Positions 3,975 to 42,421 of a stretch of 64,000 nt of DNA are shown one piece after another. Source of the stretch: Candidatus Kapaibacterium thiocyanatum (lineage in GTDB: Bacteria; Bacteroidota; Ignavibacteria; Kapaibacteriales; Kapaibacteriaceae); NCBI GenBank assembly GCA_001899175.1, contig MKVH01000024.1:62001-126000 (forward strand), read 5' to 3'. Under the pieces are notes generated by a model. That model was not told the origin of the DNA and ran no database searches. It was given only the letters and a program-made list of their open reading frames with translations. The first letter of the stretch is position 1. Every line of letters starts with the position of its first letter. Made by a program: the position numbers and the translations under genes.

Positions 3975-5366
3975 ATGGCTGACCTTGCCGAACGTACCTC
4001 GCCACTGACGTTCGATGACGCATTGCACCTGGTGCGACGCACCACATTCCATCCGACATTCAAGCTCGTCGGAAGCATGACGGGGAAGACGCCTGCACAG
4101 GCCGTCGATATACTGCTGGACATGGGGGCAGCACCGACTCCGCCCGACTGGGCCGCCGTGGCCCCGGATCCCGGAACACCGTTCGTGGACGTCGCCCGGC
4201 GCTGGCCCGAGGTGCAGACGTGGTGGATGCGTCATGTGCTGACGACGCCGTCCCTCCGCGAGCGACTGACGCTCTTCTGGCACAACGTGACGACGAGCGA
4301 CTACGTGACGGTCTACTATGGTCAGTATATCGTGCGCCAGCACGAGCTGCTGAGAACCTATGCCTACGGTCCGTTCGCGACGCTGTGCGAGAACATCGTC
4401 GGCGATCCTGCCATGTTGATCTACCTGAATGGCAACCAGAGCGTGAAGGGGAATCCGAACGAGAACTTCGCCCGCGAATTCTTCGAGCTGTTCACGCTCG
4501 GCGTGGGCAACTACACCGAACACGACATCGTCGAGGCGGCCCGCGCGTTCACGGGGTGGCGTATCTCCGGCATGAACGGCGTCTACAACGCGCAGCTTGC
4601 GGACACGGGGGCGAAGACGATCCTTGGCGAGACCGGATCGTGGGGATATCGTGACGTCGTGAGGATCACGCTCATGAAACCGGCCTGTGCGAGGTTCATC
4701 GCGGGGAAGTTGTACAGGACCTACGTGCAATCGACGCCCGACGCTACGGTCGTGGAGGTGATGGCCCAGGCATTGCTCGACACGCACTATGACATACGCG
4801 CGGTGTTGCGCAGCGTTCTCGTCTCGGATCATTTCTACGATGCCTCCATCCGCGGTGCCCTCATCAAGAGTCCTGCCGATCTCGTCATCGGCCTCGCTTC
4901 CCTGCTCGATGCGACGAAGCTCGATCCGGCCTATGCCGTGGCATCCATGACCAGGCTGGCACAGGAGCCGTTCTACCCTCCGACGGTGGAGGGATGGAAG
5001 GGACATCATGCATGGATCACGAGCTCGACCTTCCCGCAACGCCAGCGCTTCGGCGAGAATCTCGTGGCCGGACGCAAGACGGACGGATTGCCGTTGGCCG
5101 ACGATACGGGGCAGGTGCTCGCCGTCGACGTCGTGGCCTTCGCGAAGCAGTTCCCGGACCATGGCGATGCGACGAAGCTCGTGGCGAACATCGTCGGCCT
5201 GCTCCTGCCCGTTCCTGCGACGCCGCAACAGCTCGACGTCCTGCTCGACATCATGCTCGCCGGTGCTCCGGTCTATGAATGGGATATCGACGCACCGGGA
5301 AGCGTCGTCCGGTTGAGGAGCCTCCTGCAGGCCATCGTTCGTATGCCCGAATTCCAGTTGATGTAG
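3975..5366 (+). CDS. DUF1800 family protein
   Basis: A 463-residue DUF1800 protein of unknown biochemical function; the family often sits next to DUF1501 genes, as here. Family stretches are visible: RRTTFHPTF near residue 20, a WWMRHVL...LTLFWHN block near 85-110, and the conserved core with NPNENFAREFFELF and EAARAFTGWRI at about 160-200. A strong ribosome site (GGGAGG, 4 nt spacing) precedes the ATG and an in-frame TGA lies eight codons upstream, so the start is secure. The protein therefore has no signal peptide, which is odd for a partner of an exported DUF1501 protein. Its stop codon overlaps the ribosome site of the next gene (TAGGAGG), so the two are almost certainly co-translated. 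Confidence 0.9.
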   Translation: MADLAERTSPLTFDDALHLVRRTTFHPTFKLVGSMTGKTPAQAVDILLDMGAAPTPPDWAAVAPDPGTPFVDVARRWPEVQTWWMRHVLTTPSLRERLTLFWHNVTTSDYVTVYYGQYIVRQHELLRTYAYGPFATLCENIVGDPAMLIYLNGNQSVKGNPNENFAREFFELFTLGVGNYTEHDIVEAARAFTGWRISGMNGVYNAQLADTGAKTILGETGSWGYRDVVRITLMKPACARFIAGKLYRTYVQSTPDATVVEVMAQALLDTHYDIRAVLRSVLVSDHFYDASIRGALIKSPADLVIGLASLLDATKLDPAYAVASMTRLAQEPFYPPTVEGWKGHHAWITSSTFPQRQRFGENLVAGRKTDGLPLADDTGQVLAVDVVAFAKQFPDHGDATKLVANIVGLLLPVPATPQQLDVLLDIMLAGAPVYEWDIDAPGSVVRLRSLLQAIVRMPEFQLM

Positions 5367-5374
5367 GAGGACAC

Positions 5375-6940
5375 ATGAATCGCCGACGTTTTCTTCGCGC
5401 CGCCGGTACGTCCGGCCTCGCCCTTGCGACCCTGCCGGCCGTCGTGGACTCCTTCACGGTACGTGCACTTGCGGCCGGTGACGGGGGACTCGAGCGCCTC
5501 CTGGCCGCTTCGGACCGTATCCTGATCCTGATTCAGTTGCAGGGTGGGAACGATGGCCTCAACACCGTCGTTCCGTATGCCGATCCGCTCTACTACGAAC
5601 GCCGTCCGAACATCGCCATTCCGGCGGCGCAGACGCTTCGCATCGACGATACGCTCGGCTGGCATCCATCGCTGTCGGGTTTCGACGATCTCTACAAGGA
5701 CGGGAAGCTCGCCCTGGTACAGGGTGTGACCTATCCCAATCCCGACCGTTCGCACTTCCGTGGTACGGACATCTGGCTGACGGCGACCGATGCCGACGTC
5801 TTCGGCAGTACGGGCTGGGTGGGGCGATATCTCCAGACGCTCGCTCCCGGCTATCCGCAGGAGCTCCCGCCGCATCCGCTCGCAGTGCAGATCGGTACGT
5901 CGTTGTCGCTCGGCCTCCTGGGTGGTAACGGCCCGATGGGAATCAGCTTTCGCGATCCCGACGAATTCTATCGACTCGTCAACACGGGGGCGACGGACGA
6001 AGTGCCGGCCGCCCCGCCGTCGGATACGCCCGCAGGACGTGAAGTATCCTTCATGCGCAGTATCGCGCGTTCCGCCGACGTCTACGCCCGTGTGGTGAAG
6101 GACACCGCCGACAGGGGGAACATCGGTACGACGTTCCCGACGACGGACATCGGAGCCAAGCTGCGCGTCGTATCGCAACTGATCGCCGGAGGCCTGCAGT
6201 CGCGGGTCTACCTCGTGTCGTGGGCGAACAACAACTTCGACACCCATGCCGATCAGGGAGGCGTCACGGGAAATCATGCGCGTCTCCTGCGCGAACTCGG
6301 CGATGCCGTGAGTGCCCTGATGGCCGAGATGAAGCGTCAGGGACTGCAGGAGAAAGTGGCCGGGATGACCTTCAGCGAATTCGGGCGCCGTGTGGCGGAG
6401 AACGGAAGCCAGGGCACGGATCATGGAACGGCCGCACCGCTCTTCGTCTTCGGGCATTACGTGGCTGGAGGAAAGGTCTTCGGACGCAATCCCGACTTGC
6501 AGAATCTCGACGAGCGCGGTGACCTGCTCATGCAGTACGACTATCGCCATGTCTATGCGAGCGTCCTGCTGCAGTACTTCGGCGAGTCGCAGACGACGGC
6601 GCAGAACGTTCTCCTCAGGGATTTCTCCCAACAGGCATTGCCGCTGTTCCACGTGCCGGTATCCGTGCAGGAGGCTGGGCAGGGGATACATTGCGGATTC
6701 CGTTCGGTGTCGCCGAATCCCGCATCCACGACGGTGCAGGTGCGTGTCGACTGCGAGCCGTTCGCCGATGTCGGACTCCGGATAAGCGACATGCAGGGGC
6801 GTTTCGTCCGCGCAGTCCCCGTCGACGCCTGGAGTGGTATCGCCACGTTCGACGTACAGGGAATGAATCCCGGTACCTATCTGCTCACGTTGCATGCCGA
6901 CCGTGCGACGATGCACACGTTCCTCACCGTCAGCCGTTAA
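5375..6940 (+). CDS. DUF1501 protein with Tat-like leader and T9SS sorting domain
   Basis: A 521-residue DUF1501 protein; the family belongs to the alkaline phosphatase/sulfatase-like fold group but has no proven reaction. The N terminus NRRRFLRAAGTSG followed by a hydrophobic stretch is a twin-arginine (Tat) leader. Hallmarks follow: LQGGNDGLNTVVPY at about 50, RSHFRGTDIW at about 125, NNFDTHADQGG near 285 and a GMTFSEFGRRV...DHGT block at about 330-350. The last 75 residues (from SPNPAS) form a type A T9SS sorting domain ending LTVSR. The start at 5375 has a GGAGG site overlapping the preceding stop. Tat plus T9SS on one protein is unusual (see findings). Downstream is another T9SS protein, only 26 nt away. 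Confidence 0.9.
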   Translation: MNRRRFLRAAGTSGLALATLPAVVDSFTVRALAAGDGGLERLLAASDRILILIQLQGGNDGLNTVVPYADPLYYERRPNIAIPAAQTLRIDDTLGWHPSLSGFDDLYKDGKLALVQGVTYPNPDRSHFRGTDIWLTATDADVFGSTGWVGRYLQTLAPGYPQELPPHPLAVQIGTSLSLGLLGGNGPMGISFRDPDEFYRLVNTGATDEVPAAPPSDTPAGREVSFMRSIARSADVYARVVKDTADRGNIGTTFPTTDIGAKLRVVSQLIAGGLQSRVYLVSWANNNFDTHADQGGVTGNHARLLRELGDAVSALMAEMKRQGLQEKVAGMTFSEFGRRVAENGSQGTDHGTAAPLFVFGHYVAGGKVFGRNPDLQNLDERGDLLMQYDYRHVYASVLLQYFGESQTTAQNVLLRDFSQQALPLFHVPVSVQEAGQGIHCGFRSVSPNPASTTVQVRVDCEPFADVGLRISDMQGRFVRAVPVDAWSGIATFDVQGMNPGTYLLTLHADRATMHTFLTVSR

Positions 6941-6966: not shown

Positions 6967-9876
6967 ATGCGCCATTCGCTCCTTTTCGTCCTTGCCTTCG
7001 TCTTCGTGCACGTCGCACAACAGGCCCAACCGCTTTCCCAGCCATTCGTCTTCTCCATGCCGGAAGGCGTGGAGCTGGATACGACATTGCTCGCCGTACC
7101 GCTCGAGCCCGCAGGCAGCCGTGGCCGTGTACGGCTGGATGCCGATGGTCACTTCGTCTTCGCCGATGGCGGCAGGCTGAGGATGGTGGGGACCGGGTTG
7201 CAATGGAGCGGCTGCTTCCCGGACAGCGTCGTGGCGGAACGTACGGCACGACGGCTCAGGGCCCTCGGAGTGAATACGGTGAAGTTCAATGCCTTCGACT
7301 ATCCGTACTTCCGTGGCGTGAGCATCCTGGCCGACGGCAATAGCACGGAACGGCTGGACGACGAACAGATGCGCAAGCTCGACTATCTCGTCTATCAGCT
7401 CAAGCGCAACGGTATCTACAGTGTCTTCACCTTTCATTCGGTATGGATGCCCCGGCCGGGCGACGGCGTGCGTCAACCCGACTCCGTCGGTTGGGGAACG
7501 CGCATGGGCCTCGTCTTCGATCCTGTCGTGCAGACCATCCACCGCCGTATCCTTCGCCTCTTCCTCGAACATGTAAACGAGTTCACGAACGTCGCCTACA
7601 AGGACGAAGCGGCAATTCCATTCATCATCGCCGCGGAAGATGCATCTGTCATGGCCTACTGGATGTATACGCAGAACGTTATACGTCCCAACGGCGGTGA
7701 TGCCTCCGTCGGTATGCAACATCTGCGTCTGATCGATTCGCTCTTCCTCGCTTCGTTGCGGAGCAAGGGGCTCACGACCGATGCCGCGCTGGACAGGGCA
7801 TGGAGTTCGACAGTCGCGGATACGTCGAACGTGCTGCGGAACGCCGGCTTCAACGATCCGTTCAACGCCGCATGGATTCTCGGCGTCAACACGAATGCAG
7901 GGGCGCAGGCCATCGTGCAGTACAGCGACGCCGACAGGAAGGAAGGCGAATCGTCGCTCCGCGTACGGATCGCCTCTCTCGATGCGAACAAACAGTCGTA
8001 TGGTATCCAGCTCGCCCAGATACTGCAGAAGATGAAGCGCCTGCATCGGTACAGGGTGGCCTTCTGGGCCAAGACTACGCCGCAACGCGGCTCGCGTGCG
8101 ATCGCCGTGAGCGTGCAGAACAGTACCTATCCGTACGATACCTATGGCCTCGCCGAAGTCGTGAATCTCACGGATCAATGGCAGCGGTTCGACTACACGT
8201 TCACGTGTTCGGCATCGGACTCCACGAGCGGCGCGGTGTCCTTTCTGCTCGGCTCCGACAGTGGCGACGTCTACATCGACGATGCCGTACTTCGTGAGAT
8301 ACCGTTCGGCGGTCTGTTCCCCGGCGAGTCCATCGTGAACGGTACGGTCGCACGGACGTCGGTCTTCGACGAGACGATATCGCCCGCACGCGCGCGGGAC
8401 AATGCCGAATTCTATATCGGAACACTGAAATCCCTCTTCGATGGTGTCCGTCGTCTCGTGCGCGATACGCTGCGCAGTGATGTGCTCCTGTGTCCCAGCG
8501 CCCGATTCACGACCTTCCCCGAGCTCCATGCCGCGAAGGACTACGATGTGTTCTCGTCGACGGACTGGAGAAGCAATGCCACGTCGATGCTGAGCGAATA
8601 CTATGGCGGCTCGGTATACGTGCCTGCGCAGAATGCCGTCAAGGGCAAGGCGATGGTGATCACGCATTCCGGTATCCAGTATCCGCGACCGTATCACGCG
8701 CAGGTGGCGACCATCTTCCCGGCCTATGCCGGACTGCATGATTGGGACGGTGTCTTCTTCAGCGTCTTCGCGAGTCGCCCTGCCGCAGGTTCCGAACGCG
8801 TGGATTCCAATGCGGCCTGGGAGATCATGGACAAGCCCGACGTCCTTGTCATGCTCCCGTCGACTGCGGCGATGATGCGTCGTGGCGACGTCCGCCCGTC
8901 ACCGAAGGTCGTCGAGATCACGGTACCCGACGAAGCGTTCACGTATCCGAGGCTCCATGCCCAGATGCCGTATTCGCTCGGTATCTATTCCGATGGACGT
9001 ATGCCGCTATTCCGCAGGATCAGGATGAATGCCGAACCCGCGGAAATCGGCAGCTTCCTGCCGCACCGTGAGATCTCCGCGCTCGCGAGCAACGACGTGG
9101 ACCTCCGCATGCTCAACGCCGAGAACGACCAGATATTCTGGGACGCATCGGCGGGTATCCTGCGCGTGCAGACCGATCGCTACATAGGTCTGTCCGGCAA
9201 GCTTCGGGGTGAACTGTTCACGCTGCCCGGAGCGGGCCTCCTCGTCGAACAACTCGATACCGTCGAGAACGTGACGATGTCCATCGTCGGCGAGGGCGCC
9301 GAGCCGATCAGGGAAGGCAGAACCGCCTTGCTGACGATCGCCACGCGCGTCCTGAACGAAGGTGCCACGTTCAGCGCCGACAATCTTTCACTCGTGACGT
9401 GGGGTACGGGGCGGCCCATGATGGAGGGAACGGCCTTCCGGATCACCATCACGCGCCCCGACGTCGACAGCGTCTTCGCACAGCCGCTGGGTCCCGATGG
9501 ACGTCCTGCGGGCGGGCGATTCGCCGCGACGAGGAGTCCGTCCGGCCGTTTCACGTTGACGGTGAGCACGGCGCAATGGAAGACGCCGTGGTTCAGGCTG
9601 CAGTTCGGTACGACGGCGACGTCGGTAGGGGAGGATCTGCCCGAAGGCGATATCGTGATCTCGCCCAATCCTGCCGGCGAAACCATGCGGATCGATGTTA
9701 GGAGCGATGCAGCGGTCGACATGGTCGATGCTCTCGGCCGGATCGTATGGTCCGGAGTACAAGCGGGTGGTACCGGTACGACGGTCGACGTCCATGCATT
9801 CCCTGCGGGGACCTATGCCGTCCGTGCCCGCACCGGAAGTGCCGTCCGTACGATTCCGGTAGTCGTCGCGCGGTAG
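6967..9876 (+). CDS. Glycoside-hydrolase-like TIM-barrel protein with T9SS sorting domain
   Basis: A 969-residue secreted protein. A signal peptide (about 1-20) is followed by a cellulase/GH5-like opening (DGGRLRMVGTGLQW, then RALGVNTVKFNAFDYPY) from about 55. A carbohydrate-binding-like beta insertion spans about 300-440, and the barrel resumes with GLHDWDGVFF near 585. Beta-sandwich sequence and a T9SS domain from SPNPAG to the end VVVAR follow. At the expected acid/base site the usual Asn-Glu pair reads Ala-Glu (E224), and at the expected nucleophile site my reading gives His (H567). It may thus be a binding protein rather than an active hydrolase. I place the start at 6967 because the leader begins there; the frame is open upstream to 6691 inside the previous gene. 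It follows the DUF1800-DUF1501 pair and is probably in that operon. Confidence 0.72.
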   Translation: MRHSLLFVLAFVFVHVAQQAQPLSQPFVFSMPEGVELDTTLLAVPLEPAGSRGRVRLDADGHFVFADGGRLRMVGTGLQWSGCFPDSVVAERTARRLRALGVNTVKFNAFDYPYFRGVSILADGNSTERLDDEQMRKLDYLVYQLKRNGIYSVFTFHSVWMPRPGDGVRQPDSVGWGTRMGLVFDPVVQTIHRRILRLFLEHVNEFTNVAYKDEAAIPFIIAAEDASVMAYWMYTQNVIRPNGGDASVGMQHLRLIDSLFLASLRSKGLTTDAALDRAWSSTVADTSNVLRNAGFNDPFNAAWILGVNTNAGAQAIVQYSDADRKEGESSLRVRIASLDANKQSYGIQLAQILQKMKRLHRYRVAFWAKTTPQRGSRAIAVSVQNSTYPYDTYGLAEVVNLTDQWQRFDYTFTCSASDSTSGAVSFLLGSDSGDVYIDDAVLREIPFGGLFPGESIVNGTVARTSVFDETISPARARDNAEFYIGTLKSLFDGVRRLVRDTLRSDVLLCPSARFTTFPELHAAKDYDVFSSTDWRSNATSMLSEYYGGSVYVPAQNAVKGKAMVITHSGIQYPRPYHAQVATIFPAYAGLHDWDGVFFSVFASRPAAGSERVDSNAAWEIMDKPDVLVMLPSTAAMMRRGDVRPSPKVVEITVPDEAFTYPRLHAQMPYSLGIYSDGRMPLFRRIRMNAEPAEIGSFLPHREISALASNDVDLRMLNAENDQIFWDASAGILRVQTDRYIGLSGKLRGELFTLPGAGLLVEQLDTVENVTMSIVGEGAEPIREGRTALLTIATRVLNEGATFSADNLSLVTWGTGRPMMEGTAFRITITRPDVDSVFAQPLGPDGRPAGGRFAATRSPSGRFTLTVSTAQWKTPWFRLQFGTTATSVGEDLPEGDIVISPNPAGETMRIDVRSDAAVDMVDALGRIVWSGVQAGGTGTTVDVHAFPAGTYAVRARTGSAVRTIPVVVAR

Positions 9877-24572: not shown

Positions 24573-26699
24573 ATGATGGAACGATCGGAAGGGCGGACGT
24601 CGCATCTGCAGGCGATGCTCCATCTATGGCTGTCGCTGGCCGTGTGCATCGTCGTGTCCGATTCCGCACTGTTCGCGCAGCAGCGTCTACCGGTCGGCGA
24701 CGGTGCGTCGGTGGTGACGTCGGCACTGGTTTGGGATGGGCGCACTTATGCCACGTCGGTGAATCAGCTCTATCGTCAGAACGACGCTGGAATCATGGAG
24801 CGCATGACGCAGGCGAACGACGTCGTCGAAGTCCGGCTTTACGACGCGAACGGCGATGCCATCCTTGCCCATATCGTGCGAACGGATGGTTCGCGGAGGA
24901 CCGCCTCCATCGCACTGACGACGGATGGCGTCTCCTGGAATCATGTCATGACCATCGCATCGGGAGAAGCTCCCGTATCGGCCGTCATGACGAACGACGA
25001 GATCGCGGTCGTCACCGTTTCGACGATCGATCCTGCTTTCCAGGCCATCCTGATGACCTATCCGCTGCATGGCGGAGATCGGCGTACGATAACGTTGCCG
25101 CTCTCGGGTCGGAGCGGTGTGAAGGTCCATCGCAAGGCCGCGGGAATCGTGGTCAGCGGCTATGTTTCCGACGATACTCTTGCCGCATTCGGATTGACAG
25201 ACGTGGAACCATACGTCGAGCGGCTGTATCCCGAGGCACGACGCGTCCTCGTCCCGACGGGCGATATCGGTGGTCCGGTCTACTTCCACGGTTCGGGTGA
25301 CACACTTGCCGTCGATGGTCTGCCGTCCCGTTCGCGGATCATCCTGCCCGAAGGGGCATCGGAGATTCCGTACGAACTTTCCCTCGTCGATACGACCATT
25401 CTGATCGAAGCGGCAGGACGATTCCTCGTCAGCACGGACGGTGCGACATGGACGAGAATGGTCAAGCGGCCAGCACGATTCACGGAACAGGGCGATGAAG
25501 CGCTCTATGCCAACGACAGTATCATGCTGTTCTCGCAGCGATCCGTCGGTCTCTGGACCTATCGCCGCGATTCCAATGCCGCCGTGATCGGACCGTCGGG
25601 CATGCAGAGTTCGGCAGGCTTCGTCATGGGTACGGCCGGTGGACACGTACTGCTCGCCAATAGCATCATCGACGGCAGGTATGCACTGGAGATATGGAAG
25701 CCGGACGACGTGGCGGGCAGTCGAGTCGTCATCCATACCGACGCCTACGTGTCGAAGATCTTCAGCACATCTGATGGGGCGTTCATCGGCGATCCTGTCA
25801 ACGGATTGCGGGAAGTGAACATCGAAGGGGCATCCCTCGAATCGAGGGGCCTCGTCGGCCGTACCGTTACGTCCGTCGCCACGAGTGATGGCGTCCGCCT
25901 CGCGGCGGCCGATGGCCGTCTCTACGGACAGCGACCTGCCGTATCGGACGAGTGGGCGCTGGTCGATATCGGGGAGGGTCAGCCGGTCGATATGGTCGTG
26001 CGCAACGACACTGCCTACGTCGTCATGCGTGTCATCGATCACGAAGAGGGGCTGCAGTCCTACGTGCTTGCCGTCGTCGATCTGCGAACGATGGCGGAAT
26101 CGCAGCGTTACATGCTGGTGCGGGATGGTGACGGCCTGGCCTTCCACTGGATGATCGGAACGAAGTCCACGCTCGTCGTCTATCTCGGCGACATGCTGCT
26201 GTCGAGCAGGAACGGTGGTGAGAGCTGGGGAGGCAATCCCACGGACATCGGCTTCGCCGGTGTGCCGGCCGCCGACGGTACGGGATGGTGTGTGCCGTGC
26301 CGGAATGCGATGTCGATCGGTATCTGCGTTTCCGCCGATGCCGAAACGTGGTACGGATATGCGCTGGACATTCCGGACGTCGACAAGGGTATCGCCGTCA
26401 TTTCGGCATCCGGCTACACGGTAGGTACCGTCGATGGTGTCTACGCCGTGGCGGGACCGCTGACGTCGGTGGATGAGTGGCGTCACGAAGGCGGTATCGC
26501 AACGAACGACGATCTGTCGGGTCCTGGTACCGTAACCATCGTCGACGTGCGTGGAAACGTCATTCTGCGCGAGCACCTTTCCGCGATCACGACGGATCAC
26601 GTTGTGGCGATGATGGATGGTCTGGGTGCAGGTCCGTACATATGCGTCGTCGACAATGGTGCGCGGCGTGTGGTGCGGAAGATCGTGAGGTATCGGTGA
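24573..26699 (+). CDS. Secreted Asp-box protein with probable T9SS sorting domain
   Basis: A 708-residue exported protein with no recognised enzyme family. A hydrophobic leader (HLWLSLAVCIVVSDSALFA, about 17-35) is followed by beta-rich sequence. Asp-box/BNR-like motifs such as STDGATWTRM (about 290) and SSRNGGESWGG (about 550) suggest a propeller fold. The last 70 residues (GPGTVTIVDVRGNVIL to the end KIVRYR) resemble a T9SS sorting domain but lack the usual PNP entry, so that call is only probable. The start at 24573 has GGAG 6 nt upstream; a second ATG follows at once. The 146-nt upstream gap holds no strong promoter. Confidence 0.65.
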   Translation: MMERSEGRTSHLQAMLHLWLSLAVCIVVSDSALFAQQRLPVGDGASVVTSALVWDGRTYATSVNQLYRQNDAGIMERMTQANDVVEVRLYDANGDAILAHIVRTDGSRRTASIALTTDGVSWNHVMTIASGEAPVSAVMTNDEIAVVTVSTIDPAFQAILMTYPLHGGDRRTITLPLSGRSGVKVHRKAAGIVVSGYVSDDTLAAFGLTDVEPYVERLYPEARRVLVPTGDIGGPVYFHGSGDTLAVDGLPSRSRIILPEGASEIPYELSLVDTTILIEAAGRFLVSTDGATWTRMVKRPARFTEQGDEALYANDSIMLFSQRSVGLWTYRRDSNAAVIGPSGMQSSAGFVMGTAGGHVLLANSIIDGRYALEIWKPDDVAGSRVVIHTDAYVSKIFSTSDGAFIGDPVNGLREVNIEGASLESRGLVGRTVTSVATSDGVRLAAADGRLYGQRPAVSDEWALVDIGEGQPVDMVVRNDTAYVVMRVIDHEEGLQSYVLAVVDLRTMAESQRYMLVRDGDGLAFHWMIGTKSTLVVYLGDMLLSSRNGGESWGGNPTDIGFAGVPAADGTGWCVPCRNAMSIGICVSADAETWYGYALDIPDVDKGIAVISASGYTVGTVDGVYAVAGPLTSVDEWRHEGGIATNDDLSGPGTVTIVDVRGNVILREHLSAITTDHVVAMMDGLGAGPYICVVDNGARRVVRKIVRYR

Positions 26700-26831: not shown

Positions 26832-26962
26832 ATCGGTAACGAAACCGGTCGTTTGCAGTTCCTTGCGTGGCTCATGACAGGCACGATCGGGAGCGTCCTG
26901 GCCATCCTTGTCGGCACGGAAGGTGCCGCTATCATCTTTACAATCTGGATCGGAGAAAACTC

Positions 26963-29086
26963 ATGACGTTGTTCCGTCGTGTCGTCGTACTGGTCGTCGC
27001 CGTCATCGGACTTTGCCTTTCGGCGAAGGCCGACACGCTCTACGTCAACATCCAGGCCGAGCCCGGTGGGGACGGCCGTAGCTGGAATACCGCCTACCGT
27101 CATCTCAACGACGCGCTCACGGCAAGCCGCCAGGGCGACGAACTGTGGGTTGCGAAGGGAACGTACAAGCCCGATCAGGGAACGGATCGCACCGCCGGGG
27201 ACAAGAACGCTACGTTCCGCATCCTGAACCGCAGACAGGTCTACGGTGGATTCAAGGGCACGGAGACACTGCGCGAAACGCGCGACTGGTATCGTAACCG
27301 GACGATCCTCAGCGGCGATCTTCTGGGGAACGATGCCGAGGTGATCGACGTGAGCGACGTTACGCGCTTCGACAACAGCATGAACGTCGTGACCATGACG
27401 AGCGGTGATCTCGACTCGATGACGATCATCGACGGTCTGGTGATCACGGCCGGCTTCAATCCTCTTGGCGAGGGTGCCGGTATCCTCGTCGGTGCCGACT
27501 CCCCGATCTTCCGCAACTGCGAATTCCTGCGGAACGGGGCGAGCAAGGGTGGCGCCGCATACGTGACGGGAACGGGACAGGCGAAGTTCGAATACTGCAC
27601 CTTCATCGAGAACATGGCCCTGCGTGAAGGTGGCGCCATCTGCTACGAAGGCAGGAAGGACAGTCTTACGCGTCCGGCCGTATCGCAGTCGCACTTCATC
27701 GGCAACAGGGCGGGATCGCGTGGAGGTGCCATCAGCTTCGTCGATGCAGGTACTCCCCGCGTCGCCAGCTCGGTCTTCTACGGCAATCGCGTCGAAGGGA
27801 TCGGTGGCGCCGGTGGTGCCATCCATGCCGACGAGAGGACGATTCCCTACGTCGTGAACACGACGTTCGTGCGCAACCTGTACGGTGACAGCTCGGGAGT
27901 CGGTGCGGCCGTGGCCATGCATGGAGCAGGTGTCCTCAACAGCATCTTCTGGGGAACCGAGGAAGAGAATCAGCGTCAGATCGCACAACTGGATACGACG
28001 GGTCTCGATACGATGATCGCTGCCAGGGCCTGTCTGGTACGTAACGACTTCGACTTCGGCTTCTGGCAGAACGATCCGATGTTCATCGATATCGAACATC
28101 CTGCCGGTCCCGACGGCTTCCTGGGAACGGACGACGATGGACTTCGCGTCGATGCGATGTCGACTGCGCATGATGCAGGAGTCATCGACGGATTCGTGAA
28201 CCACTGGCGTACCGACTGCATCGGCAATCCTCGTCTGGTCGAGCGCAAGATCGATCTCGGCGCCTACGAGTGGCAGCGTCCTGGGCACGAACGCTATCGT
28301 GAGATCGTACGTGAAATGCGCGAAGACGGTCTCGTCTACATGTATCGTCACATGACGACGGACTGGGATCAGAAGGATCCGGGCCCGGCACCGGAATGCT
28401 TCCCCGGTCGTAACCTCAGTTATGAAGGACGTCAGCAAGGGATCACCATCGGCAAACACAGCCGTGCACTCGGTATCGACGTGACGGAAGTCCTGGCCAG
28501 TCCGGTATGCAGGTGCTGGGAGACGGCCTTCCTCATCTACGGTACCTACGAGAAGGTGGCATACTGGGGTAGTGGCGGAGGCGCCAGCAACGATGCCGGT
28601 CGCCGTGCCGATCTGTCCAGACTGGTGCTGCCTGCGGGTACGTCGCGTGCGATCGCCACGCACGATGCCGTCATCCTCACGCTGATCGATTTCACGTCGG
28701 CGGAAGTCATGGAAGGCGATGCCGTCATCATCCGTCCCCTCGGCGATACCTTCGAAGTCATCGGCCACTTCTGTTCCGACACATGGGAGCGCTATCATGT
28801 GCGCTTCCCGGATTCGACGTCGACGGGTGTCGATGGTGATGTCGATGTCGTTGCAGGCAACGGTATCCATGACGTCCATCCGAATCCCGTACAGTCGGAA
28901 CTGGCTTTCTCGCTGTCGATGGGCGGTATGGTCCAGGTCATCGACGTGAACGGGGGCATCGTTCTCACGCAACGGATGACGCAAGGACGTCAGTCGTTGT
29001 CCGTTTCATCCCTGACGGCGGGCGTCTATGCCCTGCGTGTCGTCAGCGAACGCGGCGTTTCGACAGCGATGTTCGTCAAGCGGTGA
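26963..29086 (+). CDS. Beta-helix / histidine phosphatase fusion with T9SS sorting domain
   Basis: A 707-residue secreted fusion. A signal peptide (about 1-23) leads into a right-handed parallel beta-helix region (about 25-440) with repeats such as GGAAYVTGTGQ, GGAICYEG and GGAISFVD, typical of surface adhesin-like proteins. Residues about 450-625 read as a histidine phosphatase domain: the catalytic RH is at 462-463 (YRHMTTDW), followed by RNLSYEGRQQ, the SPVCRCWETA block with R517, and the second catalytic His at 567 (ATHDAV). The C-terminal 75 residues (from HPNPVQ to MFVKR) form a T9SS domain. The usual RHG or RHA reads RHM. The start at 26963 has GGAG upstream. The gene converges with the symporter gene and overlaps its end by 11 bp. 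Confidence 0.8.
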   Translation: MTLFRRVVVLVVAVIGLCLSAKADTLYVNIQAEPGGDGRSWNTAYRHLNDALTASRQGDELWVAKGTYKPDQGTDRTAGDKNATFRILNRRQVYGGFKGTETLRETRDWYRNRTILSGDLLGNDAEVIDVSDVTRFDNSMNVVTMTSGDLDSMTIIDGLVITAGFNPLGEGAGILVGADSPIFRNCEFLRNGASKGGAAYVTGTGQAKFEYCTFIENMALREGGAICYEGRKDSLTRPAVSQSHFIGNRAGSRGGAISFVDAGTPRVASSVFYGNRVEGIGGAGGAIHADERTIPYVVNTTFVRNLYGDSSGVGAAVAMHGAGVLNSIFWGTEEENQRQIAQLDTTGLDTMIAARACLVRNDFDFGFWQNDPMFIDIEHPAGPDGFLGTDDDGLRVDAMSTAHDAGVIDGFVNHWRTDCIGNPRLVERKIDLGAYEWQRPGHERYREIVREMREDGLVYMYRHMTTDWDQKDPGPAPECFPGRNLSYEGRQQGITIGKHSRALGIDVTEVLASPVCRCWETAFLIYGTYEKVAYWGSGGGASNDAGRRADLSRLVLPAGTSRAIATHDAVILTLIDFTSAEVMEGDAVIIRPLGDTFEVIGHFCSDTWERYHVRFPDSTSTGVDGDVDVVAGNGIHDVHPNPVQSELAFSLSMGGMVQVIDVNGGIVLTQRMTQGRQSLSVSSLTAGVYALRVVSERGVSTAMFVKR

Positions 29087-31766: not shown

Positions 31767-33281
31767 ATGAAATCATTGTTGTCGTATTGCTGTGCGTTCG
31801 TGATCGCCTGCGCCGGAATGAGTGCACAGGTCGTACCCGCCGATGGCGACGAGGTCCCGTCGTTGCGTGCCCTCGATACGTTCATGCTGCGTACCATGGA
31901 GCGCTGGAACATGCCGGGTGGCCAGCTCGCCGTCACGAAGAACGGACGTCTCGTCTATTCCCGTGCCTTCGGCTATGCCGACACCATGGCGAAGATTCCT
32001 GCGACCCGTCGCAACCTGTTCCGGATCGCATCGAGTTCGAAGCCGGTCACGGGAACGGCCATCCAGAAGCTCGTTGCCGGTGGCAGGCTGCATCTGGACG
32101 ACAAGGTCGTGGATATCCTCGCAGGCATCGCGCCGGTGCCGGGGGCGACGAGACATGCGGACTGGGACAAGATCACCGTCCGTCATCTCATGATGCATAG
32201 CGCCGGTTTCGCCAACTCGAACGGCGATCCGCAGTATGAATACCTGCGTACTGCGGCCCGGGCCTGCGCCGTTCCCGTACCTGCAGATCCTGCTTCCATC
32301 ATTCGGTATATGCTGGACAAGCCACTCGACTATCAGCCCGGAACGGCCATCTCCTATTCCAACTTCGGATTCAACCTCCTGGGTCGCATCATCGAGGCCG
32401 TGACCGGTATGCCGTACGAACGCTACGTTCGCGACAGCATCTTCGCACCGGCAGGGATCACCGCGGCGTATATCGGAAAGACCAGGCGCATCGAACGCAT
32501 GGAAGGGGAAGTCGTCTACTACGTCGGCAACGACCTGCCTGACGGGTGGAGCGTGATGGGCGATGAGGATGCGCGGGTGAGCATGGCTTATGGGGCGGAC
32601 TATCATCTGCCGACGACCGATGCCCACGGTGGATGGGTCACCACGGCCACCGATCTGGTGCGCTATCTCACGTCGCTCGATCCTACGACGTCGCGCCCGC
32701 ACATCCTGCCCGCGGATCAGATCGATACCATGGTTGTCGTTCCTGCGATTTCCGGTGAGAACGATCCGCAGCGGTATCAGGGGCTGGCCTTCCGCTGCGA
32801 AGCGAACGGTCAGGTATGGACGCATGCGGGCATTCTCGCGGGCGCATCCAGCCTCATCTGGCGGGACGGCCGTACTGGTGTGACATTCACATGGATCTTC
32901 AACAGCTCTCCCATCACGACGATCGGCGAGTTCGCCCAGGATACGCGCGTACGGATGGATGCGGCCCTGGCTGCCATCGAGGCCACGAACGGCTGGCCGG
33001 ACATCGACCTCTTCGGAGCCGTCTCCGTCAAGGCGGGTCAGGCCGACAAGCCCGGCATCGACGCCCGACCCAATCCCGCGGAAGGTCACGTGACGTTGAC
33101 CTTCGGAATGGAAGGCAGTGCCGGTGCGGACCTCATCGTTGCCGATTCCGCGGGCCGTATCGTGGTACGGCGCAAGGTCGGCCTCGATACGGCGTCCGTC
33201 GTACTCCAGACGTCCGGCTGGATGCGAGGAGCCTATTCGGTCCGGATCGGCGACCGCACGTCGGCCTTCGTCGTGCGATAA
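31767..33281 (+). CDS. Secreted serine hydrolase (class C beta-lactamase fold) with T9SS tail
   Basis: A 504-residue exported serine hydrolase of the beta-lactamase/D-aminopeptidase/esterase family. A signal peptide (about 1-20) precedes the catalytic domain. The three active-site motifs are intact: SxxK at S89-K92, YSN at Y197-N199 and HAG at H353-G355 in place of KTG. HxG is common in esterase/peptidase members, so this is not good evidence of antibiotic resistance. The C-terminal 75 residues (from RPNPAE to AFVVR) form a T9SS domain, placing the protein on the cell surface or outside. It is probably monocistronic. A promoter box for the next gene begins 17 nt after its stop. Confidence 0.88.
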   Translation: MKSLLSYCCAFVIACAGMSAQVVPADGDEVPSLRALDTFMLRTMERWNMPGGQLAVTKNGRLVYSRAFGYADTMAKIPATRRNLFRIASSSKPVTGTAIQKLVAGGRLHLDDKVVDILAGIAPVPGATRHADWDKITVRHLMMHSAGFANSNGDPQYEYLRTAARACAVPVPADPASIIRYMLDKPLDYQPGTAISYSNFGFNLLGRIIEAVTGMPYERYVRDSIFAPAGITAAYIGKTRRIERMEGEVVYYVGNDLPDGWSVMGDEDARVSMAYGADYHLPTTDAHGGWVTTATDLVRYLTSLDPTTSRPHILPADQIDTMVVVPAISGENDPQRYQGLAFRCEANGQVWTHAGILAGASSLIWRDGRTGVTFTWIFNSSPITTIGEFAQDTRVRMDAALAAIEATNGWPDIDLFGAVSVKAGQADKPGIDARPNPAEGHVTLTFGMEGSAGADLIVADSAGRIVVRRKVGLDTASVVLQTSGWMRGAYSVRIGDRTSAFVVR

Positions 33282-37286: not shown

Positions 37287-39875
37287 ATGAACACGAAACA
37301 GGAACTCCTCTCGCAACTCGTAGGAGCAGGTCTGGGGCAGTACAGGACCGCGTTATGGTCGGCCACCCTGGCGCTCGCTCTTCTCCTCGTCGGAACCTCC
37401 GCCCGGGCCCAGGGCGGCTGGCAGCCCGTCGACATGCATACGACGCAGACGCTGCGCGACGCGGCCTTCGCCGATTCCCTGCACGGCTGGGCCGTGGGTG
37501 AACACGGTACGCTGACGTCGACGACGGACGGCGGGGCGGTATGGTCGCCCCTGGTTTCCAATGCCCGCGAACACCTGCGGGGCGTGGCCGTTTCTCCATC
37601 GGGAACGGTGGTGGTCGTAGGTGAGGGCGGAAGACTTCTGCGCTCGGAGGATGGAATACAGTTCACCTCGGCCGTTCTCGATTCGGAGTGGAATCTCGTC
37701 TCCGTCGTCTTCTCGTCGGATACGGAAGCGACCATCGTGGGAACGATGTCCGAATCCATGCGGGGGCTGATCCTTCATAGCGTGGATGCCGGACGTACAT
37801 GGGCGACCGTGGGCAATCCGGTCGAAGGCGTCCCTCATAACTACGCAGCCATACACTTCCACGACCCGTTGCGCGGCGCCATCGCCGGAACGACGTGGCA
37901 AAGCGTCTCCGAACACCATGCCCTCGTGCTGACGACCACCGATGGTGGGCGGACCTGGCAGCATCGATATACGTCTGCGGAACGGTTCGAAGCGAATGCG
38001 ATAGCCCGAACGACATCGGACGCTATCCTCGTTCTCGGTACCGTGGATCCCGATGATGCGGCCGGCTTCTTCGCGTCGGACGACGGCGGTGAGCAATGGC
38101 GTTTCGAAGCCAACGAACATCTGCGGGACGTGCGCGACCTCGTCTTCCTCGGAACCACGAACGGCGTGGCCGTAGGAGTGGTGACGGACGTCATCGGTCA
38201 GGAAGTCCGCAAGATGCCGAGCGCCATCTATACGTGGAATGGTGGCATGGCGTGGGGACGCGAGACGATCTCGCCCATGAAGTTCGCTCCTTCCACCGTG
38301 GCCGTTGCGGGTACCACACGTGTCCTCGCTGCAGGCGTCGAGGGTGAGGGGGCGCATGTGGCGTATCAGTGCCCTGCAACGTCGATTGTCCGCGATCTGC
38401 CCGATTCGGCGACGATGCCGTACGGAGCGACGATGGCCCTGTCCGTCGAAAGCGAGCGGGAATCCGATCGCTTCCTCTGGTATCACAACGACGTCGCCAT
38501 TCCCGGTGCCGTACACAGGATCTATCCCATCATCGGTGCGGAGATCAAGGATTCGGGGATGTATCGCGTCGACGTGATCTCGGACTGCAATACCGTCAGG
38601 AGTAACGTGTGTACGCTTGCCGTGACGCTTCCGTCCCGTCTGGTGGCGATGGCGAAGCATCTCGAATGCGGTGCCACGCAACGGGGTGAAACGCGCGATA
38701 CGGTCTTCACGGGTGCCTTCCTGAATGGTGGTCAAACATCCGTCCGTATCGTCGATGTACGGATCGCCGGTGAATCGTCCTTCTTCTCCATCGTCGGTAA
38801 TCACGCCAACACTCTCGTCGCTCCCGGGGCTTCCGTCGATGTGCATGTCCGGTATCGTCCGGAGGAAGTCGGAACGCACTGGGCCGCACTGCAGTTGTTG
38901 ACGGAAGGTGCGGACAATCCCGTCGTCCATGTCAGTGGTAGTGCCGGTGCGGAACGACAAGGTCTGCCCGTGCTGTATTCCAGACGCATGGTCGATTTCG
39001 GTGTGGTCGACATGGGGCAGACAAAGGATACGGTGTTGCCGGATCTTATCGTGAACGACTTCGCCGAACCGATGACCATCGACACGATGTATCTGAGCGG
39101 TGACGATATCTTCAGCTTCAGCCTCGAAGGCTACGATGGTCTGCCCATCCCGCTGGAGTCCGGTGCCGGTCGTGGTGTCGGTCTCTCCTTCTCTCCGTCC
39201 ATTCCGAGAACCTATCATGCCGTGCTCGTCATCGGACAGGGCGGTGTCGAACGACGTCTGCCGATCGTCGGCGTATCGCGTCCGACGTGGTATACGGACG
39301 TCGTGGACTACGGCCGTGTCGGCGTGGGAATAAGCAGGGATACGACGCTCTATTTCGAACACGTACTCGACGATGAACTGATATGCCGGGCCATCGATCT
39401 TCAGGACGGCGATTTCTCCCTCCAGGAGGTCAATCCGCGTCTCCCTGCCACCGTCGGTGCCGACGGTCTTCTGGAAGTCGTCGTGCGGTACAGGCCTACC
39501 AAGCCAGGAGCAGGTCTTACGGGACTTCGTCTCTCATGGGAATCTCCGGAAGGTGTCGTCGTGCAGACGGAGCGCAGGCTTCTCACCGGCCGCACACCTA
39601 TCGTGGCGACCGTCGAGGAGGCCCCTGCCGGCAGGCTCCAGCTGCGGCCCATTCCCGCCGATGACCGACTGTGGATCGATGCGCCCGGGCCTGGCGGTCG
39701 CGTACGCATCTCCATCACCGATATGTTCGGACGCACGGTGCGGACGCTCGACGTCGACGCAGGCATGGACGGTATCCATGCCGCCATCGATATAGAGGAT
39801 GTTCCCTCAGGAGCCTATACGGTCTCACTCGTGTCGGACGGCAAGCGCAGTACATCACGTATGGTCAAGAGGTAG
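37287..39875 (+). CDS. Asp-box propeller / Ig-like / T9SS surface protein, copy 1
   Basis: An 862-residue secreted protein. A long signal-like leader ends near residue 43 (TSARAQ). Repeats with Asp-box motifs (SVDAGRTW, TTDGGRTW, SDDGGEQW and similar) over about 45-350 resemble the Ycf48/BNR propeller. An Ig-like domain follows (FLWYHND...DSGMYRVDV, about 380-450), then two or three beta-sandwich repeats of the ASH/choice-of-anchor type (DFGVVDMGQTKDTVLP near 570). The T9SS domain ends RMVKR. It stands 2 nt upstream of a close architectural paralogue and is probably co-transcribed with it. A near-match -7 box (TGCATTTG) is at 37238-37245. Function unknown; the domains suggest cell-surface binding. 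Confidence 0.8.
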   Translation: MNTKQELLSQLVGAGLGQYRTALWSATLALALLLVGTSARAQGGWQPVDMHTTQTLRDAAFADSLHGWAVGEHGTLTSTTDGGAVWSPLVSNAREHLRGVAVSPSGTVVVVGEGGRLLRSEDGIQFTSAVLDSEWNLVSVVFSSDTEATIVGTMSESMRGLILHSVDAGRTWATVGNPVEGVPHNYAAIHFHDPLRGAIAGTTWQSVSEHHALVLTTTDGGRTWQHRYTSAERFEANAIARTTSDAILVLGTVDPDDAAGFFASDDGGEQWRFEANEHLRDVRDLVFLGTTNGVAVGVVTDVIGQEVRKMPSAIYTWNGGMAWGRETISPMKFAPSTVAVAGTTRVLAAGVEGEGAHVAYQCPATSIVRDLPDSATMPYGATMALSVESERESDRFLWYHNDVAIPGAVHRIYPIIGAEIKDSGMYRVDVISDCNTVRSNVCTLAVTLPSRLVAMAKHLECGATQRGETRDTVFTGAFLNGGQTSVRIVDVRIAGESSFFSIVGNHANTLVAPGASVDVHVRYRPEEVGTHWAALQLLTEGADNPVVHVSGSAGAERQGLPVLYSRRMVDFGVVDMGQTKDTVLPDLIVNDFAEPMTIDTMYLSGDDIFSFSLEGYDGLPIPLESGAGRGVGLSFSPSIPRTYHAVLVIGQGGVERRLPIVGVSRPTWYTDVVDYGRVGVGISRDTTLYFEHVLDDELICRAIDLQDGDFSLQEVNPRLPATVGADGLLEVVVRYRPTKPGAGLTGLRLSWESPEGVVVQTERRLLTGRTPIVATVEEAPAGRLQLRPIPADDRLWIDAPGPGGRVRISITDMFGRTVRTLDVDAGMDGIHAAIDIEDVPSGAYTVSLVSDGKRSTSRMVKR

Positions 39876-39877
39876 TC

Positions 39878-42421
39878 ATGAAGCGTCTGCTGGCGATTCT
39901 GGTTCTGCTCGCATCGTTCGCCTGCATACCCGTGCAGGCACAATGGAAGGTCGTCGTCGAAGGAGGGAGCTTCGCCCTGGTCGACGTTTCGTTCGCTGGC
40001 GAAACGGCCGGATATGCCGTCGGCGTCTACGGTACCGTCCGGAGGAGCGTGGACGGCGGGAAGACATGGTCCGAGCGGCTGACCGTTCCGACGACGGATG
40101 ACTTCAGGGCCGTGCAGGCAGTGAGTCCCGACATCGCAGTCGCAGTCACGCGTGATGGCGATATCTGGCGCACGACGAACGGTGGTGCTTCGTGGCGGGC
40201 CATTCCGAGCGGCCATCCGGAGTCGTTCATGGCGATGGAAATGGACATCAGTCCGTCGGGCGTCGGGCTCATCGTCGGCATGACGGCAGACTGGAACGAC
40301 GGTGTGATCCTGCGCACGACGGATGCGGGACTGACGTGGACCGAAGTGGTGGATCCGTTGCGTGGGCAGCGCGCGCATCTGTATCGTGGTGCCGATATGT
40401 TCGATGCCGGCCATGGTTGTATCGTGGGCAGTGTCGTGCTGGCCAGCGGCGTCGACGTCCATCTCGTATGCACCACGGACGACGGTGGTGCCACATGGAC
40501 GGTTGCCTATGAAGGACCGCGTGAACGGCCTGGCTTCCTGACCTCCGTCATCATGACGTCGAAGAGCGACATCGTGGCCGGTGGGGAATCGCTGCTGTCC
40601 ATTCCGCCGCCGTTGCTGCGGTCGACGGATGGCGGCCGGACCTTCGTCGTGCTGGGGCATCAGGCGGGAACGTTCGTCGATGCGGCCATGGGGCCGAGTG
40701 GCGAAATCGCTCTCGCGGGCAACAAGGTGATGGAAGAAGGCCATATCGCCTTCGGGAGGCATACGTTCCTGACGAGCAAGGACCGTGGTGCGACGTGGTC
40801 GCCTGCGACGAGCACGCTGCCGAATCTCCAGGCGGTCGCCCTGGATTTCGCGGGTTCCGCCATCGTCGTCGTGGGTGCCGATGGAATGATCGTCCGTCGG
40901 ACGGAGGGATGCATCGCTCCCGTCGTCACGACGGATCTTCCAGGTACGAGGAAGGGAGCCATCGGCAGCCGTATCGAACTCGGGGTCGCGGCAACGGGTG
41001 CTACGTCGTTCCAGTGGCGGAAGGATCTCGTTCCTATCTACGATGCGACGAAACCACACTACGTCATCGAGAACGCACGGCGTTCGGATTCGGGACAGTA
41101 CGATGTAGTGATCGGGAATGGATGTTCGGACGTCCAGACGGTAATGTGCATGCTGACGGTGGAGCCGGATAGAGGATTGTTGCGTCTTGCCCGGCGCGTC
41201 GTCGACATCGGTGTCGTGAATATCGGGCAGGCGCTCGATCGAACGCTGGGCGGCATTCTCGAGAATGAAGGGGTATCCGCCCTTACGGTGCGTAACATCG
41301 CCGTTGAAGGTCCCGATGCCGCGGGCCTCGCCGTCGTCACTCCCGATGGATCGTTCCGGATCGAAGCCGGTGCGGCTTCGGATGTGGAGTTCCGTGCCAC
41401 TGCGACGCACGCCGGTATCCATCGTGCGCATTGCGTCATCGCGAACGACGGTCCGATCGTGGACACGATCACGGTAACATGGTGTGGAACGAGCGGAGCC
41501 AGTGGTCTGCAGTCGCGTGTCGGTCATGTGTTCTTCGGTGCGATCCCTGCTGGCCGTACGCGCGATACGGTGCTGCCAGGACAGTTGTACAACGGAACGG
41601 ACCGGCGTGTTATGATCACCTCCGTGGACTTCGTCGGGGACGACTACGATCAGTTCGCCTTGTCGGAAACGCTGGAACTGCCCATCGTGCTGGGGCCCGG
41701 TATGTCGCGGGATCTTCTGTTCCGATATGATCCCCGTCGTGGGGGAGCGCACAATGCATGGCTCGTCGTTACTACGTCTGCAGGCGTCGAACGCCTGCAC
41801 GTCGGTGGTATATGTCCCATAGGATCTACCGGGGTGCCGTTCGGGACGGTGGCTGTTGGGGGGTCGGCGGAGATGGTGCTGACTTTCAAGCATAACGTCA
41901 ACATGGAGATGACGGTGAATGGCATCGAGGGTGTGGTTGCGCCTTTCACCATCGTCGATGTCGTACCTCGCCTGCCGGCAGTCGTTCAGGCTGATGAGCG
42001 GATCGAAGTTCGGATCCGCTTCACTCCGGAACAGGAAGGGACGCATGCGAGCGCCTTGCGCCTCTCCTTCGTCCTGCCCGATGGCGATGTCTACAGTACG
42101 TCGAAGCGGACGCTCTACGGCGATGCCGTACGCGTCACGACGGTGGAAGAAGGACGGCCTCATCCCGGAGGAAATACGCTCGCCGATGTCCATCCCAATC
42201 CCGCATCCGATATCCTTCGCATCGCCGACGCTTCCATCGTGGATGCGACGTCATTGACCATCATCGATATCCTCGGACGTATCGTCGTCGACCGTCCGAT
42301 CGTACGTGGTGCAGGCGTGCTCGACGAAACGGTGTCCGTGCAGGCGCTTCCGCCAGGCCTTTACACCGTCATGGTATCCGCTGCCGGCCGCACGGCAGCA
42401 CGAAGCTTCGTGAAGCGATAA
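39878..42421 (+). CDS. Asp-box propeller / Ig-like / T9SS surface protein, copy 2
   Basis: An 847-residue paralogue of the preceding gene with the same order of modules. A clear signal peptide (KRLLAILVLLASFACIPVQA) is followed by six visible Asp-boxes (SVDGGKTW, TTNGGASW, TTDAGLTW, TTDDGGATW, STDGGRTF, SKDRGATW). An Ig-like domain (FQWRKD...DSGQYDVV) and ASH-like repeats (DIGVVNIGQALDRTL, then VFFGAIPAGRTRDTVLPG) precede the T9SS domain (HPNPAS to SFVKR). The start at 39878 is 2 nt after the stop of copy 1, so translation is likely coupled. The open frame back to 39671 overlaps copy 1. The two products have diverged well beyond recent duplication. No enzyme motif is seen. Confidence 0.8.
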   Translation: MKRLLAILVLLASFACIPVQAQWKVVVEGGSFALVDVSFAGETAGYAVGVYGTVRRSVDGGKTWSERLTVPTTDDFRAVQAVSPDIAVAVTRDGDIWRTTNGGASWRAIPSGHPESFMAMEMDISPSGVGLIVGMTADWNDGVILRTTDAGLTWTEVVDPLRGQRAHLYRGADMFDAGHGCIVGSVVLASGVDVHLVCTTDDGGATWTVAYEGPRERPGFLTSVIMTSKSDIVAGGESLLSIPPPLLRSTDGGRTFVVLGHQAGTFVDAAMGPSGEIALAGNKVMEEGHIAFGRHTFLTSKDRGATWSPATSTLPNLQAVALDFAGSAIVVVGADGMIVRRTEGCIAPVVTTDLPGTRKGAIGSRIELGVAATGATSFQWRKDLVPIYDATKPHYVIENARRSDSGQYDVVIGNGCSDVQTVMCMLTVEPDRGLLRLARRVVDIGVVNIGQALDRTLGGILENEGVSALTVRNIAVEGPDAAGLAVVTPDGSFRIEAGAASDVEFRATATHAGIHRAHCVIANDGPIVDTITVTWCGTSGASGLQSRVGHVFFGAIPAGRTRDTVLPGQLYNGTDRRVMITSVDFVGDDYDQFALSETLELPIVLGPGMSRDLLFRYDPRRGGAHNAWLVVTTSAGVERLHVGGICPIGSTGVPFGTVAVGGSAEMVLTFKHNVNMEMTVNGIEGVVAPFTIVDVVPRLPAVVQADERIEVRIRFTPEQEGTHASALRLSFVLPDGDVYSTSKRTLYGDAVRVTTVEEGRPHPGGNTLADVHPNPASDILRIADASIVDATSLTIIDILGRIVVDRPIVRGAGVLDETVSVQALPPGLYTVMVSAAGRTAARSFVKR

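Follow-up and report, generated by a model that had tools for sequence, protein, structure and literature searches.

The window analysed here, a 64,000-nucleotide stretch of the Candidatus Kapaibacterium thiocyanatum genome, contains on its forward strand a 707-codon open reading frame (positions 26963–29086) whose product joins three parts in one chain: a right-handed parallel beta-helix, a domain of the branch 1 histidine phosphatase type, and a T9SS type A C-terminal sorting domain. From its sequence and predicted folds we regard this protein as probably a T9SS substrate, attached to the cell surface and carrying an active branch-1 histidine phosphatase, with a likely role in freeing phosphate from organic phosphorus outside the cell. 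All of the parts belong to known kinds; what is new is their combination and its conservation in one family.

Organization of the fusion gene

The reading frame, as defined by translation and by orthologues in relatives, has no internal stop, and a GTG at 26867 provides an alternative start upstream in the same frame. Residues 1 to about 23 (26963–27031) form a putative signal peptide—read by eye from the translation as a basic start, a hydrophobic core, and small residues ahead of D24—and both D24 and T25 are invariant in an alignment of 17 fusion proteins. The beta-helix occupies residues 25–440 (27035–28282) and was recognised with Pfam, NCBIfam, the structural model, and fold alignment; it is followed by the phosphatase-type domain (residues 441–620; 28283–28822), recognised with NCBIfam, a domain profile, the predicted fold, and hhalign, and by the sorting domain (residues 638–707; 28874–29083), recognised with Pfam, NCBIfam, and a tail search of the organism's own genome. 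All three lie on the forward strand, and Pfam, NCBIfam, and the predicted folds agree on the order that the original prediction had proposed.

Orthologues and conservation

A whole-protein search of 60 relatives returned 16 further full-length matches, all from the same taxonomic family and 41–48% identical; the same domain order, which was to be sought in other genomes, is thus present at full length in 16 further genomes of the family. Among 23 genomes of this family, 17 (including that of the window) have the full-length fusion, four have it cut by contig ends (truncated in G012 and G015, and represented in G007 and G021 by an N-terminal part at the contig end with no phosphatase), and two are without helix or phosphatase. 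The latter two, G010 (100% complete) and G017 (80%), gave tail matches only and none to the phosphatase domain, with one weak match for G017 in the order-wide search. With no domain match in G010, which is rated as complete, the gene is dispensable within the group. A single copy is present in every one of the 19 genomes that match the domain.

That the fusion arose in this genome from a lost stop codon or from assembly has a vanishingly small probability; an assembly or frameshift artefact is ruled out by the 16 full-length orthologues, which have no stop inside. The distance from the GAYE/GVYE motif at the helix end to the RH motif of the phosphatase is moreover constant at 25–26 residues in 16 of the 17 proteins as measured by script, the script pattern having matched an earlier GAYE in L014. 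Since the catalytic residues are invariant in all 17 proteins, across orthologues that are 40–47% identical, we conclude that the fusion is more than a chance event.

The 17-sequence alignment has 84 invariant positions, and these are unevenly spread: 33 of 165 positions are invariant in residues 456–620, versus five of 140 in the mid-helix (161–300). Mean pairwise identity is 59% for the phosphatase segment, 47% for the helix (25–440), and 28% for the tail, which makes the phosphatase domain the most strongly constrained stretch of the protein.

Chromosomal location

We compared 17 named loci containing the gene. In all 12 with enough upstream DNA, rpoC lies upstream of the fusion, and in 13 of the 17 a sodium:dicarboxylate symporter gene (68–80% identical) lies convergently downstream; an MFS gene is found in 11 loci and fusA in five. 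Part of the missing downstream neighbours is explained by locus length. L039, L044, and L048 extend about 3.5 kb past the symporter with no MFS match, L036 and L037 have no matched symporter and an MFS gene closely behind the fusion, and in L042 and L047 the sole symporter is a distant one, with about 29% identity, on the opposite strand. This conserved neighbourhood, with rpoC upstream and the symporter downstream, indicates that the gene has been inherited in place and is not mobile. The neighbours identified are rpoBC, a methyltransferase, the dicarboxylate symporter, an MFS protein, and fusA, and no recognised phosphate-uptake gene is among them. Matches to regulatory signals between 26600 and 29200 amounted to one promoter-like and one terminator-like, close to the shuffle means of 0.7 and 1.2.

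The gap between rpoC and the fusion is 2.15–2.3 kb in eight of the 12 loci, 106–250 bases in L036, L037, and L042, and 689 bases in L040. In the window the gene at 24573–26699 encodes an exported-looking protein of 708 aa with no Pfam match at E ≤ 0.001, and a gene of 687–701 aa lies between rpoC and the fusion in five other loci (L032, L035, L038, L044, and L048). Only that of L032 is recognisably similar to the protein of the window (phmmer, 1.9e-13), so this protein may evolve fast.

The phosphatase domain

The RH motif that contains the presumed phospho-accepting histidine is at residues 462–463 (28346–28351), the second phosphate-binding arginine, R517 (28511–28513), lies within PVCRCWETA (514–522), and the second active-site histidine, H567 (28661–28663), lies within ATHD (565–568). 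These are the positions given in the original prediction, and all of them (R462, H463, R517, and H567) are invariant in the protein of the window and its 16 orthologues. RH and R517 align to the corresponding residues of E. coli SixA and Ais, and H567 to the histidine of Ais. As judged from these alignments, the domain has the complete catalytic residue set of a branch-1 histidine phosphatase.

Family models place the domain in this superfamily at scores below their thresholds. The PRK06193 subfamily model of NCBIfam (NF004842) matches residues 445–603 with an E-value of 1.3e-15, but its 57.4 bits fall far short of the curated cut-off (325); at E ≤ 0.01 it matches all 17 members. Pfam His_Phos_1 (PF00300) matches residues 458–525 weakly (15.3 bits for the whole protein and 18.6 for the domain; cut-off 21.7), and the same model is matched by 17 of 17 member domains at E ≤ 0.1. 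The PmrG model (NF052369) matches the 707-aa protein with an E-value of 0.0011 and 18.5 bits against a cut-off of 170, and 13 of the 17 members at E ≤ 0.01. With every NCBIfam phosphatase match far under its curated cut-off, the substrate is not readable from family membership. Elsewhere in the own genome three His_Phos_1 loci, in frames of 186–246 aa, score above the Pfam cut-off, and the fused gene is absent from the list of that search at E ≤ 0.001.

Against the sequences of solved structures the whole protein has no match at E ≤ 1, and the domain profile has ten weak matches (best E-value 0.095), all of them phosphatases or bisphosphoglycerate mutases by name with the exception of one uncharacterised yeast protein. 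In profile alignments, RH and R are matched to those of E. coli SixA at a low probability of 8.6, and RH, R, and H to those of Ais (hhalign) at a probability of 60.6. The low family scores would suit a domain that no longer catalyses and instead binds phosphate or a phosphoglycan; we consider this very improbable, given that all of the recognised catalytic residues are invariant in 17 of 17 proteins, as are the nearby E581, E584, and D586.

The segment was also predicted to fold as a branch-1 histidine phosphatase, the check that had been suggested for it. A model of residues 441–620, built from 18 sequences, has a mean pLDDT of 82.2 and a pTM of 0.81. In domain numbering RH is at 22–23, where strand 18–22 ends; R77 lies after strand 67–72 and just ahead of helix 78–86; and H127 directly follows strand 121–126. 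An RH after strand 1, an arginine before the helix that follows strand 2, and a histidine after the next strand constitute the layout of the histidine phosphatase superfamily. The original prediction had H463, R517, and H567 meeting in one pocket, and the strand and helix topology of the model is consistent with this; the agreement is one of topology, not of distances.

The best Foldseek match of the domain model in the PDB is 3f2i (5.6e-08), the Nostoc protein alr0221, and in VIA-align 3f2i and SixA (1ujb) share the highest Z-score of 14.6, the latter with 2.7 Å over 138 residues; RosC, PGAM5, MutT1, and PhoE are among the matches that come after. A Z-score of 8 or more was obtained for 336 of the 999 aligned chains. 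SixA and alr0221 have the same fold as the domain, but they are single-domain proteins of about 160 aa with 14–16% identity to it, and SixA is cytoplasmic.

Relationship to other phosphatases

The closest relatives in sequence are the PRK06193 phosphatases (NF004842/NF004841) and those of locus L049, which share with the fusion the DC..RNL..EG and SPVCRCWETA blocks and the same RH, R, and H. Unlike the fusion they have neither helix nor T9SS tail, the PRK06193 models being 209 and 232 positions long and the L049 frames about 190–200 aa.

A second comparison is with PmrG/Ais, the LPS core heptose(II)-phosphate phosphatase, which is of the branch-1 type like the fusion and in which RH, R, and H align. 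It bears on the chief rival to a role in phosphate release: an envelope-modifying enzyme whose phosphatase acts on the cell's own surface glycan or LPS, as PmrG/Ais does on core heptose, with the helix binding the glycan. PmrG is given in PMC8129183 as dephosphorylating heptose II of the LPS core. The best match of the PmrG model among the 13 members that it reaches has an E-value of 8.9e-10, Ais aligns over RH, R, and H, and the constant housekeeping location and single copy in the 19 matched genomes also agree with an envelope enzyme. We nonetheless think such an enzyme rather unlikely here: the PmrG score of this protein is about a tenth of the cut-off, there is no LPS gene among the identified neighbours, and PmrG/Ais is an extracytoplasmic enzyme acting from the periplasmic side, whereas the fusion has a T9SS tail. 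PmrG/Ais is, moreover, a protein of 200 aa without helix or T9SS tail, and its gene in E. coli adjoins the arn genes.

A third group comes from f7, a sister family in the same taxonomic order (L026–L030), in which a phosphatase of the same kind is joined to a T9SS tail. An RH...CR(C/A)Y...TH set is present in all five proteins; they are about 300 aa long and, unlike the fusion, have no beta-helix. In the two that were tested (L027 and L030) Por_Secre_tail scores above its cut-off, and Pfam gave the tail only at E ≤ 0.001. Two neighbouring copies of a gene for a phosphatase with T9SS tail occur in G028, and two in G054.

Among the extracellular phosphatases known from Bacteroidota, the PhoA, PhoX, and PafA types predominate. 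PafA and PhoX also appear in PMC8115612, a source whose phosphate-depletion table for Flavobacterium johnsoniae includes the T9SS-domain outer-membrane proteins Fjoh_3854 and Fjoh_3855, and whose Pi-deplete exoproteome figure marks exoproteins with weak homology to pectate lyases. These F. johnsoniae table and figure entries are a parallel by analogy and not evidence for the fusion gene.

The beta-helix

Two Pfam models match the helix above their cut-offs, Beta_helix at residues 170–267 (27.4 bits; cut-off 25.9) and the Chlam_PMP repeat (24.7 bits; cut-off 20.6). The choice-of-anchor Q model (NF041518) matches weakly at 398–438, with 18.4 bits against a cut-off of 25, and is matched by 15 of the 17 members at E ≤ 0.01, the other two having no match. 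The N-terminal GGF.G.E..R..RDW and GTDDDGL element of the fusion presumably also resembles that group of right-handed beta-helix surface proteins, which includes T9SS proteins. In the usual choice-of-anchor Q members the anchor comes directly after the helix, and the fusion differs from them in having the phosphatase inserted between helix and sorting domain.

Compared with the model of the phosphatase domain, that of the full-length protein is less confident, with a pLDDT of 73.4 and segments 15–42, 405–421, and 617–644 below 50, and the best 50 Foldseek matches obtained with it cover the phosphatase domain only. Model residues 23–439 align with the pectate lyase Pel9A (1ru4) with a Z-score of 25.2 and 3.9 Å over 329 residues, and in the model a right-handed parallel beta-helix fold of the Pel9A type is thus present, but it is a fold common to many other families.

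The closest solved folds are mostly lyases and depolymerases, including alginate lyase 6kfn (Z 23.5) and rhamnogalacturonan lyase 5olr (Z 23.0) in addition to Pel9A, an enzyme with a catalytic lysine and a calcium site, and it is conceivable that the helix is itself a pectate- or alginate-lyase-like enzyme, in which case a two-step protein would cut a phosphorylated polysaccharide and then dephosphorylate it. We judge this improbable, because rhombotarget A, at Z 24.6, and the adhesin PfbA, at Z 18.9, stand in the same fold list, and because the 17-sequence alignment has no invariant charged residue (Asp, Glu, Lys, Arg, or His) from residue 161 to residue 360; the positions closest to it are E210 (16 of 17) and one where 16 of the 17 proteins have R and that of the window has Q206. 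Lacking such a residue in this region, the helix more probably serves for binding or as a spacer than as a lyase, and its ligand would probably be a polysaccharide.

Tailspike folds do occur among the helix matches, beside the many lyases. A phage origin of the helix was considered and rejected, there being no PHROGs match at E ≤ 0.001 and the gene lying in a housekeeping region.

Predicted export and orientation

The sorting domain is recognised by Pfam Por_Secre_tail at residues 638–700 (30.6 bits; cut-off 27) and by NCBIfam TIGR04183 (T9SS type A sorting domain; 30.4 bits, cut-off 23), and the tail is matched in 15 of the 17 members at E ≤ 0.01, with two lacking a match. The own genome encodes SprA (856.6 bits), PorU (825.5), and PorV (305.6), all above cut-off, and has 91 Por_Secre_tail matches at E ≤ 0.001, from which it follows that a T9SS is present.

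In T9SS cargo the tail is cleaved off, and anchoring is by the C-terminal end of the protein. Given the order of helix, phosphatase, and C-terminal anchor, the phosphatase should by analogy lie between the anchor and the helix, proximal to the membrane, with the helix distal. This reverses one element of the original prediction, in which a surface-bound phosphatase was presented on a fibre-like helix: the helix, the branch-1 fold with its catalytic set, and the T9SS tail all stand, whereas presentation on a fibre is given up, with the phosphatase placed near the surface. The strand period in the full-length model is 26–30 residues between about 182 and 325 and the rise of a beta-helix is 4.8 Å per coil; from these values the helix is estimated at some ten coils and a length of about 5 nm, a short rod and not a fibre.

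Four more T9SS tails above the Pfam cut-off are encoded on the forward strand of the window, at 6710–6907, 9658–9843, 39648–39863, and 42188–42397, and the region is accordingly rich in genes for T9SS cargo. A beta-lactamase-family protein at 31767–33281 (PF00144, 3.1e-61) has a tail match of 21.3/25.8 bits, under the cut-off of 27.

Distribution

One genome per species from 84,980 species was scanned with two short peptide patterns, which together with a plasmid search constitutes the survey beyond the phylum. The scan returned 19 loci, of which 17 are of the fusion kind; 15 of these are full length, and the other two (L043 and L047) begin inside the fusion gene at a contig end. Fifteen of the 16 orthologues from relatives recur unchanged as the full-length proteins of the scan, which therefore adds names and neighbourhoods rather than new copies. 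The record titles of 14 of the 17 read Ignavibacteria bacterium, Candidatus Kapaibacterium, or Bacteroidetes bacterium, and the rest Bradyrhizobiaceae bacterium, Melioribacter roseus, and 'bacterium'. The 'Bradyrhizobiaceae bacterium' locus (L040; JAGFIZ010000063.1) has the fusion gene beside an rpoC whose protein is 84% identical to that of the window, and with the family's gene in this setting the title is probably wrong.

The remaining two loci, L049 and L050, encode single-domain, exported-looking histidine phosphatases with the same SPVCRCWETA block, arranged in tandem at 4128–5265 and 2631–3768, respectively; their contigs are labelled Pelagibacter / uncultured bacterium.

Among the matches listed for 123 genomes of the order there is no full fusion outside the family, and the best matches listed there extend over no more than the helix, the tail, or the phosphatase with the tail; up to nine candidates per genome were scored. 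No full fusion outside the family was found either among the matches scored, up to eight candidates per genome, in a sample of 395 genomes of the phylum. With the own genome included, at least 13 of these have a match to the domain profile at E ≤ 1e-5: nine belong to the same family, two to family f7, and the other two are G236, with a frame of 313 aa, and G272, with one of 267 aa. In the plasmid search no record covers 80% of the query, and six records have the helix or the phosphatase alone. We found no paper in the open-licence PubMed Central literature that describes a histidine phosphatase, beta-helix, and T9SS order.

A proposed role at the cell surface

We favour the reading that the protein is a phosphatase of the cell surface with phosphorylated extracellular material as its substrate, because the catalytic set is intact, the helix resembles a binding or spacer part, and the T9SS anchor is C-terminal. 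The protein would leave the cytoplasm by Sec and then cross the outer membrane by the T9SS, after which the tail would be lost and the protein anchored at its C-terminal end. H463 would take the phosphoryl group from an extracellular phosphomonoester while R462, R517, and H567 hold that group, and water would then release phosphate; the beta-helix may bring a phosphorylated polymer or matrix to the enzyme.

More tentatively, and as a possibility we would not put at even odds, the fusion may represent an undescribed class of composite surface enzyme in one Kapabacteria-like family, at a fixed place near rpoBC, in which a polysaccharide-binding helix captures phosphorylated polymer and a membrane-proximal phosphatase strips the phosphate from it. 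If this is true, uncultivated Bacteroidota would have another route by which to obtain phosphate or to remodel surface glycans, and for one of the many beta-helix surface proteins the fusion suggests a function that can be put to the test.
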